Source: Micromonospora okii
GTDB lineage: Bacteria > Actinomycetota > Actinomycetes > Mycobacteriales > Micromonosporaceae
Direction: 5' to 3'
Assembly (NCBI RefSeq): GCF_020884795.1
Contig: NZ_BBZF01000027.1
Location: 1-64,000 of the forward strand
Length of the DNA stretch: 64,000 nt
Within the stretch, counting starts at the first letter, position 1; each line of letters starts with the position of its first letter. The position numbers were made by a program, and so were the translations under genes. The notes below the pieces were generated by a model. That model saw nothing but the letters and a program-made list of their open reading frames with translations. It ran no database searches and was not told where the DNA came from. Below are positions 10,089 through 44,178 of this stretch, piece after piece.

Positions 10089-11987
10089 GTGGCGCGCGAG
10101 TTCACCAGCGTGGGTGTCGTGGGGCTGGGCACCATGGGCGCGGGCATCGTGGAGGTCTTCGCCCGAAACGGCGTCGACGTCGTCGCGGTCGAGATCTCCG
10201 AGGCCGCCCTGGAGCGCGGCCGGGCCAACCTGACCGGCTCGACCGACCGGGCCGTCGCCCGGGGCAAGCTCGCCGAGGCCGACCGGGACGCCCTGCTGTC
10301 CCGGGTGAACTTCCAGGTCGGGCTGGACGCGCTGCACTCGGTGGACCTGGTGGTCGAGGCGGTTCCCGAGCACCTCGACCTCAAGCAGCGGCTCTTCGCG
10401 GAGCTGGACCGGGTCTGCCGGCCCGAGGCGATCCTGGCCACCAACACCTCGTCGCTGTCGGTCACCGAGATCTCGGTCGCCACCGGTCGGCCCAACCAGG
10501 TCATCGGCATCCACTTCTTCAACCCGGCCCCGGTCATGAAGCTGGTCGAGGTGGTCCGCACGGTGGTCACCTCCGCCGAGGTGGTCGCGGACGTCGAGGC
10601 GCTCTGCGCCCGGCTCGGCAAGGTCGACGTGACCATCAGCGACCGGGCCGGCTTCATCGCCAACGCGCTGCTCTTCGGCTACCTCAACCACGCCGTGTCG
10701 ATGTTCGAGGCGCACTACGCCACCCGCGAGGACATCGACGCCGCCATGAAGCTCGGCTGCGGCCTGCCGATGGGCCCGCTCGCCCTGATGGACCTGATCG
10801 GCCTCGACACGGCGTACGAGATCCTGGACACCATGTACCGGCGGGGCGGGCGGGACCGCCGGCACGCCCCGGTGCCGCTGCTCAAGCAGATGGTCACGGC
10901 GGGGCTGCTCGGCCGCAAGTCCGGCCGGGGCTTCTACACGTACGAGCGGCCGGGCTCGCCGAAGGTCGTACCGGACGAGCGGACGCCCGTGGCCGCGCAG
11001 CCGGCGGCCACCGACGGCGCGCGCGCCATCACCAAGGTCGGGGGCGGGAGCGCGAGGAGTGAGCTTGCGAGCCCCGCAGTCGTGACCAAGGTCGGCATCG
11101 TCAGCGCGAGGAGTGAGCTTGCGAGCCCCGCAGTCGTGACCAAGGTCGGCATCGTCGGGTCCGGGACGATGGCCACCGGGATCATCGAGGTCTTCGCGAA
11201 GGCCGGCTACGAGGTCGTCTCGGTGACCCGGGGCGCGGAGAAGTCCGCGAGGGTCTGCGAGGCCGTCAAGACCTCGCTCAACAAGGGCGTGGTGCGGGGC
11301 AAGCTCAGCGAGGCCGACCGGGACGCCGCGCTGGGCCGCATCAACTGGTCGGCCACCCTCGACCACCTCGCCGACGTCGACCTGGTCGTCGAGGCGGTGG
11401 TCGAGGAGCTGAGCGTCAAGAAGGCCCTGTTCGCCAGCCTCGACGAGATCTGCAAGCCGGGCGTCGTGCTCGCCACCACCACCTCCTCGCTGCCGGTGAT
11501 CGACGTGGCCATGGCCACCCAGCGGCCGGCCGACGTGGTGGGGCTGCACTTCTTCAACCCGGCCCCCGTCATGCCGCTGGTGGAGATCGTGCGGACCATC
11601 CGCACCTCCGACGAGACCGTCGCCACCGCCCGCGCCGTCTGCGACCGGCTCGGCAAGACCGGGGTGGCCTGCGCCGACCGGTCCGGCTTCATCGTGAACG
11701 CGCTGCTCTTCCCGTACCTGAACGACGCGGTGCGGATGCTGGAGGCCAGCTACTCCACGGCCGACGACATCGACCACGCGATGAAGCTGGGCTGCGGCTA
11801 CCCGATGGGCCCGTTCGAGCTGCTCGACGTGGTAGGCCTGGACGTCGCCCTGGCCATCCAGCGCGAGCTGTACCTGGAGCTGCGCGAGCCCGGCTTCGCC
11901 CCCGCGCCGCTGCTGGAGCACCTGGTGACGGCTGGCTACCTGGGCCGCAAGAGCGGGCGCGGCTTCCGCGACCACACCCACCGCTGA
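10089..11987 (+). CDS. hbd: Tandem-fused 3-hydroxybutyryl-CoA dehydrogenase (two modules)
   Basis: A 632-residue protein with two complete 3-hydroxyacyl-CoA dehydrogenase modules; the usual enzyme has one module of about 285 residues. Module 1 (about 1-290) starts with GVVGLGTMGAG, module 2 (about 351-632) with GIVGSGTMATG. Both keep the catalytic HFFNPAPVM segment and the C-terminal MKLGCGxPMGP helix. The reaction is acetoacetyl-CoA to 3-hydroxybutyryl-CoA, between thiolase and crotonase in the ethylmalonyl-CoA route. The GTG at 10089 follows GGGGAGG by 6 nt. The linker holds two exact 54-bp repeat copies (residues 321-356) derived from an interspersed element. Module 2 has GLHFFNP where module 1 has GIHFFNP; no obvious loss of active-site residues in either. 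Confidence 0.9.
   Translation: MAREFTSVGVVGLGTMGAGIVEVFARNGVDVVAVEISEAALERGRANLTGSTDRAVARGKLAEADRDALLSRVNFQVGLDALHSVDLVVEAVPEHLDLKQRLFAELDRVCRPEAILATNTSSLSVTEISVATGRPNQVIGIHFFNPAPVMKLVEVVRTVVTSAEVVADVEALCARLGKVDVTISDRAGFIANALLFGYLNHAVSMFEAHYATREDIDAAMKLGCGLPMGPLALMDLIGLDTAYEILDTMYRRGGRDRRHAPVPLLKQMVTAGLLGRKSGRGFYTYERPGSPKVVPDERTPVAAQPAATDGARAITKVGGGSARSELASPAVVTKVGIVSARSELASPAVVTKVGIVGSGTMATGIIEVFAKAGYEVVSVTRGAEKSARVCEAVKTSLNKGVVRGKLSEADRDAALGRINWSATLDHLADVDLVVEAVVEELSVKKALFASLDEICKPGVVLATTTSSLPVIDVAMATQRPADVVGLHFFNPAPVMPLVEIVRTIRTSDETVATARAVCDRLGKTGVACADRSGFIVNALLFPYLNDAVRMLEASYSTADDIDHAMKLGCGYPMGPFELLDVVGLDVALAIQRELYLELREPGFAPAPLLEHLVTAGYLGRKSGRGFRDHTHR
11049..11156 (+). repeat. Family B repeat, two exact 54-bp copies inside a coding sequence
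   Basis: Copies at 11049-11102 and 11103-11156 are identical and codon-aligned, each encoding SARSELASPAVVTKVGIV. The first 36 bp (GCGCGAGGAGTGAGC... GAGCCCCGCAGTCG) match the intergenic element at 22066-22123. The last 18 bp are the native beginning of module 2, so element and native strand were duplicated together. The reading frame stays open. Confidence 0.9.
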
Positions 11988-14614: not shown

Positions 14615-16828
14615 TCACTCGGACTCGACGCGCACCTTGCTCGGCTTCGCGCTGCGCTCGTCGGTGGTCGGCTTGCTCGGCCGCTTGCCGTTCTCGCCGG
14701 TACTGGTGATCTTCGTGGGGGTGGCCCCCCGGCCGCCCTCGCCCGGCACGGCCGCCACCGTGGGCTCGCCGTCCACCCCGGCGCTCGCCGCCGAACCGTC
14801 GACCGTGGTGACCGGCTCGGCCACGGGGCGGGCCGGGGCCGGCCCCGCGCCCTCGGCGGGCGTCACCTTCGCCGCCCCCTCGGCGGGCGCAATCTTCGCC
14901 GCGCCCGCGTCGGCCGTCGCCTTGACGGTCGCGGCCTTCACCGGCGCGACCCCGGGCTTCGCCGGCCTGCCGCCCGGCAGCCCCGGGCCGTCCCCGTCGG
15001 CGGCCGGGTCCGCCCCGTTGGTCGCCCTGATCGGGGCCACCCCGTTCGTGGCCTTGACCGGGACCGCGCCGCTGGCACCCTTGGCGGGGCCCGCCCCGTC
15101 GAGCGCCGGCGCAGAACCCGCGCCGTCCACCGCCTTCGCCGGGCCCGCGCCGTCGAGGGCCTTCGCGAGGCCCGCCCCGTCTGCGGTGGCGGCCGGGGTC
15201 GGGGCCGACAGGCGCGCGCCCGCGAGCTGCTGCCGCAGGTCGAGTAGTTGTCCCTGGAGTTCGTCGGACTCCTGCCGGGACTGCCAGGTCTCCTGCCGCA
15301 GGTCGGCGAGCTGCTGCTGGGCCTGGGCGATGTCCAGCATCACCTGGGCCAACTGTTGGCGGCCGGCGGCCACCTCCTGCTGGGTGGCCGCGAGGTGCTG
15401 CTGGGTCGTGGCGAGGTGCTGCTGGGTGGTGGCCGCGTACTCCTCGAACTGGCGGCGGGACGTGGCGACGTGCTCGTCGGCCCGGCGGCGCTTGTCGGTC
15501 GCGTCGGCCTCGGCCCGGCTCAGCAGCTCGGCGGCCTCCTCCTCGGCGCGGCGGCGCATCGTCAGGGCGTCCTGCTCGGCGGCGCGCCGGATCTCCGCCG
15601 CGCCCTCCTCGATCTCCGCCCGCCGGGCGGTGTACTGCTCCTCCAGTTCGGCCTGCCGGGCAATGTGCTGGGTGTCCAGCTCGTCGCGGCGCTCGGCGTA
15701 CCCCCGCTCGGCGGCGGCCTTGCGCTGGGCCAGCTCCCGGTCGGCGGCCTCCCGCCGGTCGTTGACCTCCTTCTCCACGCCGGCCCGCCAGGCGCCCAGT
15801 TCCTGCTGGGTCTGCGCCCGCGACTGCTGCACGTACGCCTCGGTCTCGGCGCGCATCCGCTGCACGTACGCCTCGGTCTCGGCGCGCTGGCGCTTGCTGG
15901 ACTCGGTGGCCTGCGTGGTGAGCCGCTCGGCCTCCTGCCGGGCCCGGTCGCGGGTGCCCTTCGCCGCCTCCTCGGCCTCGTCGGTGATCCGCTTGGCCTC
16001 CTGCAACGCCTTGGCGTGGGTGGCGCGGCCGGCCTCGGTGGCGGAGTCGGTGAGCCGCTTCGCCTCCTGCTGGGCCTTGGCGTGCACCTCCTTGGCGGCG
16101 TCCCGGAGCTGGGTGGCCTCCTGCTGGGCCTTGGCCAGGGCCTCCTTGGCCGCCTCGCGGAGCTTGGTCGCCTCCTGCTGAGCCCGCGTGTGGATCTCCT
16201 TGGCGGCGTCCCGGAGCTGGGTGGCCTCCTGCTGGGCCTTCGCGAGGGCCTCCTTGGCGGCCTCGCGGAGCCGCTCGGCCTCCTGCCGGGCGGCCTCGCG
16301 GAACCGGGCCGACTCCTCCTGGGCGGCCTTCAGCGTGGCGTCCGCCTCGGCACGGCGGGCGGCGGTGTGCCGCTCCTCCTCGGCGCGCCGGGCGGCCAGG
16401 GCGATCTCGAAGTCCTTGAGCGCGTGGGCGGCCTGCTCCTTGGCCTCGGCGACGATGTGCTCGGCGGCGGCCCGCCGGGCCTCTATCTCCTCGCTCGCGG
16501 CGGCCAGGATGTCGTCGGCCTGCTCCTCGGCGAGGGCGAGGATCTGCTCGACGCGCGGGCCGAGGTGCCGGAACGAGGCCCGGTCCACCACGCCGGCATG
16601 CTTGCGCACCTGGGCCAGGTCGCGTTGCAGCACCTCGACCTGGCCGGCCAGCTTGTGGATCTGTGTGTACGCCTGTTCCCGCTCGGCCGCCAGTGTCGCG
16701 ATCTCGTGCTCGGCGCGAGCGACGTACCGGTCGACCTGTCGTTTCTCGTACCCCCGGAGCGCGGACTCGAAGCTGGGCTCCGTGGTCACGTCCCCCCCGA
16801 GCGCGAACAGTTCCTCGCCGTGCGACAT
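14615..16828 (-). CDS. scy: Scy-like coiled-coil polarity protein
   Basis: A 737-residue protein, nearly all coiled coil from about 40 to 540. The N-terminus FESALRGYEKRQVDRYV (20-36) is the DivIVA-like motif shared with FilP, followed by LGPRVEQILALAEEQAD (89-105). Residues 190-261 consist of four 18-residue repeats of the type AAKEALAKAQQEATQLRD, fitting a 7+11 heptad/hendecad pattern. Residues from about 545 on are Ala/Gly/Pro/Thr-rich. Scy of Streptomyces (about 1,300 residues) organises the tip polarisome with FilP and DivIVA; this one is much shorter. The ATG at 16828 is chosen because the motif starts near it. Its neighbour filP supports the assignment. An alternative is a paralogue of FilP with a separate role. 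Confidence 0.75.
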   Translation of the reverse strand: MSHGEELFALGGDVTTEPSFESALRGYEKRQVDRYVARAEHEIATLAAEREQAYTQIHKLAGQVEVLQRDLAQVRKHAGVVDRASFRHLGPRVEQILALAEEQADDILAAASEEIEARRAAAEHIVAEAKEQAAHALKDFEIALAARRAEEERHTAARRAEADATLKAAQEESARFREAARQEAERLREAAKEALAKAQQEATQLRDAAKEIHTRAQQEATKLREAAKEALAKAQQEATQLRDAAKEVHAKAQQEAKRLTDSATEAGRATHAKALQEAKRITDEAEEAAKGTRDRARQEAERLTTQATESSKRQRAETEAYVQRMRAETEAYVQQSRAQTQQELGAWRAGVEKEVNDRREAADRELAQRKAAAERGYAERRDELDTQHIARQAELEEQYTARRAEIEEGAAEIRRAAEQDALTMRRRAEEEAAELLSRAEADATDKRRRADEHVATSRRQFEEYAATTQQHLATTQQHLAATQQEVAAGRQQLAQVMLDIAQAQQQLADLRQETWQSRQESDELQGQLLDLRQQLAGARLSAPTPAATADGAGLAKALDGAGPAKAVDGAGSAPALDGAGPAKGASGAVPVKATNGVAPIRATNGADPAADGDGPGLPGGRPAKPGVAPVKAATVKATADAGAAKIAPAEGAAKVTPAEGAGPAPARPVAEPVTTVDGSAASAGVDGEPTVAAVPGEGGRGATPTKITSTGENGKRPSKPTTDERSAKPSKVRVESE

Positions 16829-16936
16829 GCCCTCATCCTCACACGCATCCGCTCCGGCTGGGGCGATACGGACGCCCCGGATGGGAGCTACTTCACGGGT
16901 GTCGCCGACCCCCGTGTCAGTGGGTGGGAAACGGAT

Positions 16937-16980
16937 ACGGCGCGGGGTCCCACCGGTCACCCGGTGTCACCCCGCGCCGT
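16937..16980 (-). terminator. Hairpin terminator after filP
   Basis: ACGGCGCGGGGT and ACCCCGCGCCGT form a 12-bp stem. An inner CACCGG/CCGGTG stem sits in the loop. It follows the filP stop and precedes the scy-like gene, so the two may be transcribed separately. Confidence 0.75.
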
Positions 16981-17004
16981 GTCCGTGCCCCGGCCGTCGG
17001 TGGG

Positions 17005-18264
17005 TCAGCCGGCGGGCTCCGCGGTCGCCCGCTCGTCCTTGGCGTCGGTCTTGGCCGGCTCCGGCTTGGCCTGGGCCGGCGCCGACGGCACGCCCGGCAC
17101 GATGCCGGCGAGGCCGGAGAGCATCTGGCCGAGCTGCGAGGTGACGGCGTCCTTCTGGCGGGTCAGGTCCTCGACCTCGCGGCGGGCGGCCTGGGTGGTC
17201 AGGTCGGCCTCGGTGCGGGCCTCGGTGAGCAGCCGCTTCGCCTCGGCCTTGGCCTCGTTGAGGGTCTTCTCGGCCAGCGACTTGGCCTTCTCGACGGTCT
17301 CGTTGGCGGTGCGCTCGGACTCGACCCGGCGGGCCTCGGCGCGCTGCTCGATCTCCTTGGCCCGTTCCTGGGCGCCCCGGGCCCGCTGCTCGGCCTCGCC
17401 GACCAGCTTCTGGGTCTGCGCCACCTGGGCGGCGTGCCGCTCGGACTCCTCGCGCTCGGCCTTCTCGCGCCGCTCGGCGAGCTGGAGCTCCAGGGCCTGC
17501 AGGTCCTTGTCGCGCTTGTCGCGGGCGTCGGTGAGCAGCTTGGTCGCCTCGGCGCGCTTCTCCTCGGCCTCCCGCGCGGCCTTCGCCCGCTGCTGGGTGA
17601 TCTCCCGCTCGGCGGTGGCGCGCAGCGTGGCGACCTCCCGCTCGACGGTCGACTTCAGCTCGGCGACCTCGTGCGCGGTGACGGTGCGGAGCTGCTTGGT
17701 CTCCCGCTCGGCGTCGGTGCGCAGGGTGTCGGCCTCCCGGCGGGCCTGCACGCGGACCTCGGCGGCCTCCCGCTCGGCGGCGGTGCGGACGCTGCCGGCC
17801 TCGCGCTCGGCGGTGGCCTTCATCGCGGCGGCCTCGGCGCGGGCCTTGTCGGTGATCTCGCGGGCCTCCAGGCGGGCCGCGGAGAGGATGCCCTCGGACT
17901 CGCGCTTGGCCTCGTTGCGGTGGTCGTTGGCCTGCTCCTCGGCCAGCCGCAGGATCTGCTCGACGCGCGTGCCGAGCCCGGAGAGGGTCGGCCGGCTGTT
18001 CTCCTCGAGCTGCTTGTTGGTCTCGGCGAGCTTCTGCTCCAGCGCGGTCTGGCGCTGCTCGGCCTGGCGGAGCCGACGCTGGGCGTCGTTCATCCGCTGC
18101 TCGGCCTCGGCGCGGGCCTGCTCGGACTGCGTCAGCGCTGCGGTCAGCCGGCCGATGAAGTCGTCGACCTGCCCGACGTTGTATCCGCGCAGGCCAACGG
18201 TGAAATCTGGCTGCGAGTTCGCGTTATCGAAGAACGCGAGAGGGGAGGGCTGCTGCTGGGGCAT
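17005..18264 (-). CDS. filP: FilP-like intermediate-filament-type coiled-coil protein
   Basis: A 419-residue protein with FTVGLRGYNVGQVDDFI (21-37) at the N-terminus, LGTRVEQILRLAEEQAND (near 96-113) and a continuous charged coiled coil to about 365, ending in LTRQKDAVTSQL. These blocks match Streptomyces FilP, which assembles into filaments behind growing hyphal tips and gives stiffness. The chain is about 100 residues longer than Streptomyces FilP, mainly in the rod and a Pro/Ala tail. It acts in the cytoplasm with the Scy-like protein and DivIVA. In Streptomyces this pair lies near epimerase, thiolase and icmA, as here, which supports the identification. Confidence 0.82.
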   Translation of the reverse strand: MPQQQPSPLAFFDNANSQPDFTVGLRGYNVGQVDDFIGRLTAALTQSEQARAEAEQRMNDAQRRLRQAEQRQTALEQKLAETNKQLEENSRPTLSGLGTRVEQILRLAEEQANDHRNEAKRESEGILSAARLEAREITDKARAEAAAMKATAEREAGSVRTAAEREAAEVRVQARREADTLRTDAERETKQLRTVTAHEVAELKSTVEREVATLRATAEREITQQRAKAAREAEEKRAEATKLLTDARDKRDKDLQALELQLAERREKAEREESERHAAQVAQTQKLVGEAEQRARGAQERAKEIEQRAEARRVESERTANETVEKAKSLAEKTLNEAKAEAKRLLTEARTEADLTTQAARREVEDLTRQKDAVTSQLGQMLSGLAGIVPGVPSAPAQAKPEPAKTDAKDERATAEPAG

Positions 18265-20871: not shown

Positions 20872-22068
20872 ATGGCTTCGGTGATCGTCAGCGGCGCGCG
20901 GACCCCGATGGGTCGCCTGCTCGGCAACCTCAAGGACCTCCCCGCGACCAGGCTCGGCGGCGTCGCCATCAAGGCCGCGCTGGAGCGCGCCGGGGTGGCG
21001 CCCGAGCAGGTGCAGTACGTGATCATGGGGCAGGTGCTCCAGGCCGGCGCCGGCCAGATCCCCGCCCGGCAGGCCGCCGTCGAGGCGGGCATCCCGATGT
21101 CCACCCCGGCGCTGACCATCAACAAGGTCTGCCTCTCCGGCCTGGACGCCATCGCCCTGGCCGACCAGCTCATCCGGGCCGGCGAGTTCGACATCGTGGT
21201 GGCCGGCGGCATGGAGTCGATGACCAACGCCCCGCACCTGCTGCTCGGCCAGCGCTCCGGCTACAAGTACGGCGACGTGACCGTGAAGGACCACATGGCG
21301 CTCGACGGGCTCACCGACGCCTGGGACTGCTGCTCCATGGGCGAGTCCACCGAGCGGCACGGCGCGCGGCACGGCATCACCCGCGAGGAGCAGGACGCGT
21401 TCGCCGCCGCCAGCCACCAGCGGGCCGCCGCCGCGCAGAAGGACGGCCGCTTCGCCGACGAGATCACCCCGGTGATCATCCCGCAGCGCAAGGGCGACCC
21501 GCTGGTGATCAGCGAGGACGAGGGCATCCGCCCAGACACCACGGTCGAGTCGCTGGGCCGGCTGCGCCCGGCGTTCGCGAAGGACGGCACCATCACCGCC
21601 GGCAGCGCCTCGCCGATCTCCGACGGCGCCGCCGCCGTGGTCGTGATGAGCAAGGCCAAGGCCAAGGAGCTGGGGCTGACCTGGCTGGCGGAGGTCGGCG
21701 CGCACGGCAACGTGGCGGGCCCGGACAACTCCCTGCACTCGCAGCCCTCGAACGCGATCAACCACGCCCTGAAGAAGGGCGGCCTCGGCGTCGAGGACCT
21801 GGACCTCATCGAGATCAACGAGGCGTTCGCCGCAGTCGGCATCCAGTCCACCCGCGACCTGGGCGTCAGCCCGGACAGGGTGAACGTCAACGGCGGCGCG
21901 ATCGCGCTCGGCCACCCGATCGGCATGTCGGGCGCGCGGCTGGTGCTCACCCTCGCGCTGGAGCTCAAGCGGCGCGGCGGCGGCACCGGCGCGGCGGCGC
22001 TGTGCGGCGGCGGCGGCCAGGGCGACGCGTTGATCATCCACGTCCCCAGCGCGGGCGAGAACCAGTGA
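20872..22068 (+). CDS. Acetyl-CoA C-acetyltransferase
   Basis: A 398-residue biosynthetic thiolase that condenses two acetyl-CoA into acetoacetyl-CoA. Active-site residues are Cys87 (NKVCLSG), His348 (GHPIGMSG) and Cys378 (LCGGGGQG), and NEAF precedes the active loop. Length is normal. The ATG has GGAGG 6 nt upstream. It begins the pathway completed by the dehydrogenase at 10089 and Ccr at 18608. The stop codon overlaps a family B repeat that fills the gap to meaB. Symbols thlA, atoB or phaA would all fit; none is forced. Confidence 0.93.
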
Positions 22069-22123
22069 GCGCGAGGAGTGAGCGGGGTGTGCGAGCCCCG
22101 CAGTCGCGAACGAAGGTCGAAGA
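22066..22123 (+). repeat. Family B repeat, intergenic copy
   Basis: TGAGCGCGAGGAGTGAGC begins with the thiolase stop codon. GCGGGG and CCCCGC arms inside can form a small hairpin. The sequence continues GCAGTCGCGAACGAAGGTCG up to the meaB start. The same element sits in frame at 11049-11156. Confidence 0.85.
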
Positions 22124-23128
22124 GTGAGCGAAGCCGTCGGGCCGGGCCCGGCCGGGGGCGCGCCGTCGGTGCGTCGCAGCCGGGACGTGCCGATGCTGGT
22201 GGAGCGGGCCCGCGCGGGTGACCCCCGCGCCGTGGCCCGGCTGATCACCCTGGTCGAGTCCGGCGACGAGGTGCTGCCGCGCGTCGCGGCGGCGCTGGCC
22301 CCGTACGCCGGTCGGGCGCAGGTGGTCGGGCTGACCGGCTCGCCCGGGGTGGGCAAGTCCACCACCACCAACGAGCTGGTCCGGGCGCTGCGCGCGCGTG
22401 GGCACCGGGTCGGGGTGCTGGCCGTCGACCCGTCCAGCCCGTTCACGGGCGGGGCGATCCTCGGCGACCGGGTGCGGATGCAGGACCACGCGACGGACCC
22501 GGGCGTCTACATCCGGTCGATGTCCAGCCGGGGCCACCTCGGCGGGCTGTCGGCGGCCACCCCGCAGGCGGTGCGGGTGCTGGAGGGCGCCGGCTGCGAC
22601 GTGGTGCTGGTGGAGACCGTCGGCGTCGGGCAGGCCGAGGTGGAGGTCGCCTCGCTGGCCGACACCACGCTGGTGCTGCTCGCCCCCGGCATGGGCGACG
22701 CGATCCAGGCGGTCAAGGCCGGCATCCTGGAGATCGCCGACGTGTTCGTGGTCAACAAGGCCGACCGGGACGGCGTCGACGCCACCGTGCGCGACATCCA
22801 GGGCATGATCGCCCTGGGTGAGCGCGGCCCCGGCGAGTGGCGACCGCAGGTGGTCCGCTCCGTCGCCGCGCGGGGCGAGGGGATCGACGACGTCGCCGCC
22901 GCGATCGACAAGCACCGCGACTGGCTGGAGCGCCACGACGAGCTGCGCCGCCGCCGGGAGGCGCGGGCCGCCGCCGAGATCGAGGCGATCACCCTGGGCG
23001 TGCTGCGCGCCCGGATCGGTTCGCTGCGCGACGGTACGGAGCTGCCGGCGCTCGCCGCGAAGGTGGCCTCGGGGGCGCTCGACCCGTACGCCGCCTCCGC
23101 CGAGCTGCTGTCGCAGATCGGCTCCTGA
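22124..23128 (+). CDS. meaB: MeaB GTPase, acyl-CoA mutase chaperone
   Basis: A 334-residue G3E P-loop GTPase that loads and protects coenzyme B12 on acyl-CoA mutases. The P-loop is GSPGVGKST (near 71-79), switch regions include VDPSSPFTGGAILGDRVRM and ETVGVGQAEVE, and the base motif is NKAD. The C-terminal helices are for dimerisation. GTG is the start, preceded by AAGGTCGAAG. It is 55 bp after thiolase, with the gap fully occupied by a repeat. Its clients are likely MeaA, IcmA and a methylmalonyl-CoA mutase elsewhere. Confidence 0.94.
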   Translation: MSEAVGPGPAGGAPSVRRSRDVPMLVERARAGDPRAVARLITLVESGDEVLPRVAAALAPYAGRAQVVGLTGSPGVGKSTTTNELVRALRARGHRVGVLAVDPSSPFTGGAILGDRVRMQDHATDPGVYIRSMSSRGHLGGLSAATPQAVRVLEGAGCDVVLVETVGVGQAEVEVASLADTTLVLLAPGMGDAIQAVKAGILEIADVFVVNKADRDGVDATVRDIQGMIALGERGPGEWRPQVVRSVAARGEGIDDVAAAIDKHRDWLERHDELRRRREARAAAEIEAITLGVLRARIGSLRDGTELPALAAKVASGALDPYAASAELLSQIGS

Positions 23129-42833: not shown

Positions 42834-44178
42834 TGGTCCGACGCCGCCGCATCAGCACGATCCCGCCGAGCGTCGCGGCGCCCAGCATGCCGGCCCCGGT
42901 GGTGGCCAGCCCGCGGTCGACGCCGCCGGTCGCGCCGCCGTCACCGCCGTCGACGCCCCCGCGCGGGAGCACGACCAGCTCGCCCTCGCCGCAGGAGCCG
43001 TGGATCTTGTAGCGGCCCGGCTCGGCGTCCGAGTCGACCCGGGCCTCGCCGTAGTAGACGAAGTCCTTCCCGTGCTCCCAGGAGTCCTCGTCCTCGCCGT
43101 GGCGGCCCGACTCGTCGTCGTTGTCGCCGTTGTCCTTGCCGTGGCGGTCGGACTCGCCGTTGTCCTTGCCGTGGCGGCCGGACTCGCCGTTGTCCTTGCC
43201 GTGGTGGTCCGACTTGTCGTCGTTGTTGCCGTGGCGGCCCGACTTGTCGTCGTTGTTGCCGTGGCCGCCGGACTCGCCGTTGTCCTTGCCGTGGCGGTCC
43301 GACTTGTCGTTGTTGTTGCCGTTCTCCTTGCCGTGGCGGTCGGACTCCTCGTCCTTCCCGTTGCGGTTCGACTCCTCGTTCTTGCCGTAGCCGGAGCCCC
43401 CGCTGGTGTTGCCGTACTCCTTCTCGGACTGCTGGTCGGACTCGTAGCCGCTCCACTCCTCCTCACCGTAGGAGTCGTCGGGGGCCCCGCCGCCCTTGCC
43501 GTCCTGCTTGCCGTTCTCGTTGTCCTTGCCCTGGTCCTCGCCGGGCTTGCCGTGCCCCTCGCCGGGCTTGCCCTGCTCGTTGCCCTTGCCCTGCTCGTCG
43601 CCGGGCTTGCCCTGCTCGTTGCCCTTGCCCTGCTCGTCGCCGGGCTTGCCGTTCTCGTTGTCCTTGCCCTGGTCCTCGCCGGGCTTGCCGTGCCCCTCGC
43701 CGGGCTTGCCCTGCTCGTTGCCCTTGCCCTGCTCGTCGCCCGGCTTGCCGTGCTCGTCGCCCCGGCCCTGGTCCTCGCCCGGCTTGCCGTGCTCGTTGTC
43801 CTTGCCCTGCTCGTCGCCGGGCTTGCCGTGCTCCTTGCCGTCCTCGCCCTGGTCCTCGCCGGGCTTGCCGTGCTCGTTGCCACCCCGGTCTTCGTCGCCC
43901 CGGTCACCCCGGTGGTCGCGGCCCTCGGCCGGGCGCAGGTCGACCTTGCCGGTCACCTTGGACCAGACGAAGACGTCCTCCTTGCGCTCCGTGCAGATCT
44001 CCAGGAGCGTGACCTTCTCGCCGGGCTTGACGACGTGCGGCTTGGCGTAGATCTTGCCCTCGCGGGCCTCGCCGTCCTGGTGCCCGTCCGCGAACGCGAT
44101 CCCCGGCGTGAACACCAGCAGGGACGCGCCGCCGAGGGCCGCACCCGCGACAACCTTCCCGAGCATCTTGTTTGCCAT
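42817..44178 (-). CDS. Repeat-rich cell-surface protein with LATTG sorting motif
   Basis: A 453-residue secreted protein. It has a signal peptide (about 1-32), a small folded N-terminal part (KPHVVKPGEKVTLLEICTER, 50-80), a very hydrophilic middle of over 300 residues built from repeats such as HGKPGEDQGKDNE and SDRHGKDNGES, and a second small folded segment (EPGRYKIHGSCGEGELVVL, near 380). The end is LATTG, a hydrophobic segment and RRRR, the standard sortase sorting signal. It is thus a wall-anchored stalk that holds its N-terminal domain away from the surface. I chose the ATG at 44178; a GTG at 44190 is in frame. The partner sortase follows. Confidence 0.85.
   Translation of the reverse strand: MANKMLGKVVAGAALGGASLLVFTPGIAFADGHQDGEAREGKIYAKPHVVKPGEKVTLLEICTERKEDVFVWSKVTGKVDLRPAEGRDHRGDRGDEDRGGNEHGKPGEDQGEDGKEHGKPGDEQGKDNEHGKPGEDQGRGDEHGKPGDEQGKGNEQGKPGEGHGKPGEDQGKDNENGKPGDEQGKGNEQGKPGDEQGKGNEQGKPGEGHGKPGEDQGKDNENGKQDGKGGGAPDDSYGEEEWSGYESDQQSEKEYGNTSGGSGYGKNEESNRNGKDEESDRHGKENGNNNDKSDRHGKDNGESGGHGNNDDKSGRHGNNDDKSDHHGKDNGESGRHGKDNGESDRHGKDNGDNDDESGRHGEDEDSWEHGKDFVYYGEARVDSDAEPGRYKIHGSCGEGELVVLPRGGVDGGDGGATGGVDRGLATTGAGMLGAATLGGIVLMRRRRTNGSLA
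43100..43900 (-). repeat. Tandem coding repeats of the surface protein
   Basis: Short degenerate units encode GKPGEDQGKDNE-like (about 43500-43870) and RHGKDNGESD-like (about 43110-43360) peptides. The units are in frame and vary by substitution, as expected for a length-variable stalk. Confidence 0.8.

Follow-up and report, generated by a model that had tools for sequence, protein, structure and literature searches.

A short dispersed repeat of Micromonospora at stop/start gene overlaps, with tandem in-frame copies in the linker of a double dehydrogenase

Introduction

The closest known kind of element to the repeat described here is the Rickettsia palindromic element (RPE), a short dispersed repeat of ~150 bp that, according to one review, lies in frame within protein-coding genes unrelated to one another (PMC10969869). 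MITEs and REP/RAYT elements are dispersed, too short for a transposase gene, and accompanied by a short target duplication, whereas BOX, RUP, ERIC, and similar elements are grouped with our repeat simply as small dispersed repeats; the same review mentions that large BOX elements and intragenic ERIC elements carry open reading frames (PMC10969869). Stop/start overlaps, in turn, are the common arrangement of coupled genes, and gene distances of ~20 nt nearly abolish coupling in the pairs tested (PMC10666635).

The element considered here was encountered in a Micromonospora okii genome. It shares with RPEs its occurrence in frame in unrelated genes (encoding a dehydrogenase, a phosphomannomutase, and a helicase). 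Unlike RPEs, which are taken here as that review describes them (PMC10969869), it has a unit of about 54–63 bp, lacks a fold beyond chance (three sequences) where RPEs are palindromic by name, and has its main home at gene-overlap junctions. With MITEs and REP/RAYT elements it shares dispersal, shortness, and a short target duplication; unlike them, it shows no hairpin beyond chance in the three sequences folded, and its insertion at NTGA overlaps keeps the frame. What sets it apart from BOX, RUP, ERIC, and their like is a chain of stop/start overlaps leading from gene to gene in 36 of the 40 junction arrays tested. Among the papers listed in open-licence PubMed Central, none deals with the element, judging by its title or the opening of its abstract; both core strings and their peptides were likewise unmatched there, four partial matches sharing only a reverse-complement 13-mer and bearing titles off the subject.

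The repeat in the linker of a double dehydrogenase

The window (the whole stretch of DNA analysed, 64,000 nucleotides of contig NZ_BBZF01000027.1) contains a frame of 632 codons, counted from its GTG, that encodes a tandem two-module 3-hydroxyacyl-CoA dehydrogenase (Table 1). A profile search found Pfam 3HCDH_N and 3HCDH twice each, giving two complete modules with one such pair apiece, and NCBIfam 3-hydroxybutyryl-CoA dehydrogenase models match the same frame.

Table 1. Coordinates of the dehydrogenase gene and of the repeat copies in the window
Feature	Position	Strand	Remarks
Double 3-hydroxyacyl-CoA dehydrogenase CDS	10089..11987	+	ORF, GTG start 10089, stop TGA 11985-11987; Pfam, NCBIfam models
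Left flank repeat, ACCAAGGTCGG plus 7 diverged bases	11031..11048	+	corresponds to empty site of relatives, e.g. ATCGCGAAGGTCGGCGTGGTG
Repeat unit copy 1, 36 bp element part plus 18 bp tail/flank repeat	11049..11102	+	core 11052-11082
Repeat unit copy 2, identical to copy 1	11103..11156	+	core 11106-11136
Ordinary junction copy	22065..22126	+	GTG/TGA overlap 22065-22068; next GTG 22124-22126, 59 bp on

An earlier note on this DNA had claimed two identical in-frame copies of 54 bp at codons 321–356, which we confirm; TRF reports an array at 11031–11156 with a period of 54 and 2.3 copies. The note had further matched the first 36 bp of the unit to an element at 22066–22123, between genes that we take, from their protein ends, to be thiolase-like (upstream) and MeaB-like (downstream). 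The core at 22071–22106 does belong to the same family as the dehydrogenase copy (its middle reads GGGGTGT vs TT), but the likeness runs past 36 bp, with GTCGCGAACGAAGGTCG at 22103–22119 similar to GTCGTGACCAAGGTCG of the dehydrogenase copy.

The predicted structure of the whole dehydrogenase is mediocre (mean pLDDT 65.1, pTM 0.44, 24 sequences). Residues 301–350 have the lowest block-mean pLDDT (24–39) and neither helix nor strand in the model, in which the linker looks unstructured, a reading weakened because residues 181–300 and 521–632 are likewise poorly predicted (pLDDT mostly 33–58). Enzymes fused in this way through a short linker are found widely among Actinobacteria (80 loci of named relatives). 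Judged by this comparison of sequences, the fusion and its short linker long pre-date the repeat, which would therefore lengthen a linker rather than make one. The note's idea that a non-coding repeat has become a protein linker accordingly survives in part: an interspersed repeat does lie here in frame, but the linker is older, and at gene junctions the repeat forms an open chain of mini-ORFs.

Dispersal of the element

The core was searched for as GCGAGGAGTGAGC-N0..12-GCGAGCCCCGCAGTCG, with the reversed pattern as a control. The M. okii genome (6.44 Mb) holds 28 matches in 14 arrays and none to the control, and every one of the genus's 160 genomes contains the core. A sample of the order, 298 genomes in size, yielded 45 carriers, namely 44 of the genus (the M. 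okii genome included) and a single genome of another genus of the same family (G217). Searched for by itself, the 17-base head was present in 22 of the 71 family genomes and in 15 of 44 genera, Micromonospora included. Five loci of other genera were read, three of which start at the TGA that closes a frame of 320, 400, or 499 open codons within the stretch read, and two of which do not. The head is abundant in g103 and g107, two further genera of this family (genomes G444, G440, and G464), which might have versions of the element of their own. At E ≤ 1e-5 no match to the element was found in a phage collection, and in a plasmid collection one Micromonospora plasmid matches, at two places.

The unit, usually of 54–62 bp, is built from four parts: a GAGCGCGAGGAGTGAGC head, a middle that varies, a CCCCGCAGTCGCGAAC part, and a tail resembling a ribosome-binding site. 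There are two core types, of 31 bp and 36 bp, whose peptides differ in their second half, after SE (SELASPAVANE vs SEPVLRAPQSR). Because the two types read differently there, the peptide is not the conserved feature, and a conserved mini-peptide was ruled out as a general explanation.

Gene junctions as the usual home

The junction set comprised 75 arrays at 74 loci (L183 has two), taken from the M. okii genome and from regions of G001, G002, G006, G008, G016, G017, and G024; the counts from it are not independent because orthologous junctions recur among genomes. In 49 of these arrays the stop of the upstream gene lies exactly at −5 (TGA-GC|GCGAGG), within a 4-nt stop/start overlap, and 53 arrays have GTGAGC as the six bases at their left. 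Two loci, L196 and L214 (in G002 and G017), have the left edge GTGTAC, outside the overlap pattern.

Translation paths were traced through 40 of the 49 arrays with the stop at −5, leaving aside nine with no clear downstream frame or start as well as the 26 arrays with the stop elsewhere; each path began at the overlapping GTG and could restart only at overlaps of 1 or 4 nt. The distance from the first GTG to the next start is 56 bp in 9 of 11 arrays with the 31-bp core, and 59 bp in 19 and 62 bp in 5 of the 29 with the 36-bp core, the unit length being 2 mod 3 in 35 of the 40. Units of 56, 59, or 62 bp rebuild the overlap, so that an array is a chain of mini-ORFs. Besides the 36 arrays whose path reaches the next gene, there are two in-frame fusions and two failures (L002 and L021, both of the M. 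okii genome). After an artificial deletion of 1 nt, 27% were still coupled, 2% fused, and 67% failed; after an artificial insertion of 1 nt, the figures were 20%, 55%, and 24%. The 104 distinct tandem periods among the matches listed (54–63 bp) were 2 mod 3 in 55 cases, 0 mod 3 in a further 43, and 1 mod 3 in only 6, a count that covers 102 tandem arrays in 26 genomes, ignores kinship, and omits matches spaced 107–124 bp (G002, G091, and G444). The same arrangement can be read from RefSeq annotation of the M. terminaliae plasmid pLB1, on which an acyltransferase CDS ends at GTGA and a glycerol-3-phosphate dehydrogenase CDS starts 59 bases past that GTG.

One junction, that of the MeaB-like gene, gives the exact extent of an insertion. 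Empty relatives (e.g. G088 and G001) read ...CAGTGAGCG..., and the M. okii sequence is longer by exactly 59 bp, with AGTGAGC on either side; a similar insertion is present in G151. The set comprised 30 loci, 28 of them readable, and among 19 loci of the genus, M. okii included, we counted by eye 2 intact, 5 relic-like (G140, G085, G136, G070, and G107), and 12 empty. Across the 40 arrays, left and right sides match at the three bases preceding NTGA more often than shuffled pairs do (0.68 vs 0.32, 0.70 vs 0.50, and 0.45 vs 0.30), and the next seven bases show no excess agreement. A target-site duplication, as in MITEs, is thus seen both in these three bases and in the paired AGTGAGC; the flank repeated in the dehydrogenase is longer than the ~7 bp found at junctions.

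We propose that the element would insert at the 4-nt stop/start overlap (NTGA) of two genes of the same direction, duplicating about 3 locus-specific bases plus NTGA. The mini-ORF of the unit would start in the upstream overlap and end in the rebuilt downstream overlap, and translation could then pass from gene to gene. That coupling depends on overlaps, as reported (PMC10666635), gives the junction pattern a meaning. Both the mobility of the element and the actual translation of its mini-ORFs are presumed here.

Copy number in the linkers of relatives

Of the genus's 160 genomes, 148 were fetched and their dehydrogenase linkers read: 134 are empty (31–34 residues), 8 have one copy, 2 have two (M. 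okii and G109), 1 has three (G140), and 3 hold likely remnants (G065, G031, and G144), always at the same place. The linker of G106 (L289), counted as empty, ends in ASPAAVTK and is perhaps another remnant. Among named relatives with a readable linker, the element occurs only in Micromonospora sp. KC606 (L089), and none of the readable linkers of named loci outside the genus carries it. The earlier note had suggested comparing copy number among relatives, and the comparison bears it out, with 0, 1, 2, or 3 copies at one place and absence from most genomes; the outcome that it held to speak against its reading, the same linker in all relatives and no genomic copies, did not occur.

In all 11 filled alleles the element lies at the same place, and in 9 of them the first copy has GGGAGC at its left edge. 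The 31-bp core is identical in six of them, although the third codon positions of module 1 differ among these six by 22% on average and by 10.7% at the least. An identical core in such diverged genes speaks against a single old insert that changed as fast as the gene around it, but homogenisation could produce the same picture. On the gene tree (a quick tree, with the three remnants excluded), filled alleles are scattered, requiring at least 9 changes, 8 of them forced by well-supported branches; shuffled labels gave a mean of 10.7 changes and were as low in 13–15 of 500 cases, so the filled label is slightly clustered.

The note had read the last 18 bp of the unit as the native start of the second module, duplicated after insertion. 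Alleles with two and three copies do fit tandem amplification after insertion; the flank repeat alone, however, is no proof of it, since one-copy alleles already carry the flank motif on both sides, and a purely native origin of the 18 bp is, from the sequences compared, doubtful. In empty alleles the native site itself resembles the element tail (median rank 15 of ~1810 positions, and within the top 1% in 77 of 134, in a weak test that takes the best of 7 offsets), and for this reason tail and native flank are inseparable. As proof of homology-driven insertion this likeness was rejected, the rank test being too weak.

Origin of the linker copies

We consider it likely that the repeat is a dispersed short element of Micromonosporaceae with its home at junction overlaps, which entered the linker in frame and was amplified in tandem afterwards. 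The element would have entered at a site resembling its own tail, and the unit of element plus flank would then have multiplied in some lineages. Entry into this linker probably happened more than once, and we read the scatter of filled alleles as repeated gains rather than losses; in the dehydrogenase protein the copies would be neutral. Its main competitor, which we regard as unlikely, holds that a single insertion pre-dated the diversification of the genus, was lost many times by precise recombination between the flanks, and survives in alleles homogenised by other genomic copies. The common position of all 11 filled alleles, the left edge kept by 9 of them, the likely remnants, and the direct flank repeats, which would permit precise deletion, agree with it; it must nevertheless invoke homogenisation for the six identical cores, and it has to accommodate 134 empty linkers out of 148 as well as the element-free linkers of named loci outside the genus. 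A simple tandem duplication of native coding sequence on the spot, with no relation to the intergenic copies, would account for two identical tandem blocks, but is refuted by the occurrence of the same core at 14 places in the M. okii genome and the absence of the block from 134 of 148 orthologues, and we give it practically no credence.

As to the junctions, the arrays might be kept for tuning the ratio of coupled genes, as a leader or re-initiation device that is neither selfish nor neutral, the linker copy being a by-product. The overlap chain in 36 of 40 arrays, an array of 6 copies in G004 (among the matches listed), and the dependence of translational coupling on overlaps (PMC10666635) favour such a role; we nonetheless think it rather less probable than not, given the patchy presence of the element (only 2 of 19 MeaB-like junctions intact by eye, with 5 relic-like and 12 empty) and the different peptides encoded by the second halves of the two core types. 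A palindromic element of REP or MITE type, moved by a RAYT or an IS transposase, appears improbable. Such an element would be short, dispersed, and bordered by a short target duplication, as ours is; yet an RNA hairpin was dismissed for folding no better than chance (z of 1.3, −0.05, and −0.5 in three sequences), the window has no Rfam match at gathering scores, and the M. okii genome has no match to the Y1 transposase family PF01797 expected of REP/RAYT systems, a search whose control was positive in 5 of 14. A CGCGA/TCGCG pair noticed by eye is a candidate for terminal inverted repeats.

Going beyond the likely origin outlined above, we tentatively entertain the possibility, at not quite even chances, that this is a minimal mobile element whose target is the 4-nt stop/start overlap between coupled genes and which persists because its far end re-forms the overlap. 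Such an element would be transparent to translation, and because it would be read through harmlessly it could also keep seeding extra residues into protein linkers, repeatedly at the same codon. If true, this would be a route for dispersed DNA through compact operons without breaking translation, and the 0, 1, 2, and 3 copies among relatives would form a natural record of a repeat becoming protein.

Copies inside other proteins and other repeats in the window

The unit also lies, in the same frame as in the dehydrogenase, within variable loops of what we take from the protein sequences to be a phosphomannomutase (G002, G017, and G151) and, in the M. okii genome, a UvrD-like helicase; since the unit is open in this frame, it may be tolerated inside proteins. 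Among 17 readable of 23 helicase relatives fetched, none has the element. The M. okii allele is 18 residues longer than, for instance, L402, with no clear duplication, and its tail looks like the element's own, unlike a copied flank, which is why a purely native origin of the 18 bp in the dehydrogenase seems doubtful to us.

For the mutase, 24 loci were fetched (L398 and L399 unreadable, L391 and L400 the same gene), and L377 proved to be filled besides the two first found, with L378 and L379 as possible relics. In L383 and L385 the same loop is occupied by other simple repeats (a Ser-Gly run and a GTGVAGA repeat), so that it seems to be a hot spot where growing repeats are tolerated.

Elsewhere in the window, 15809–17835 contains repeats with periods of 33, 54, 66, and 108, possibly in a repetitive protein, and 43090–43903 is dense with tandem repeats (periods 30, 39, 90, 99, and 138), perhaps as a low-complexity coding region.
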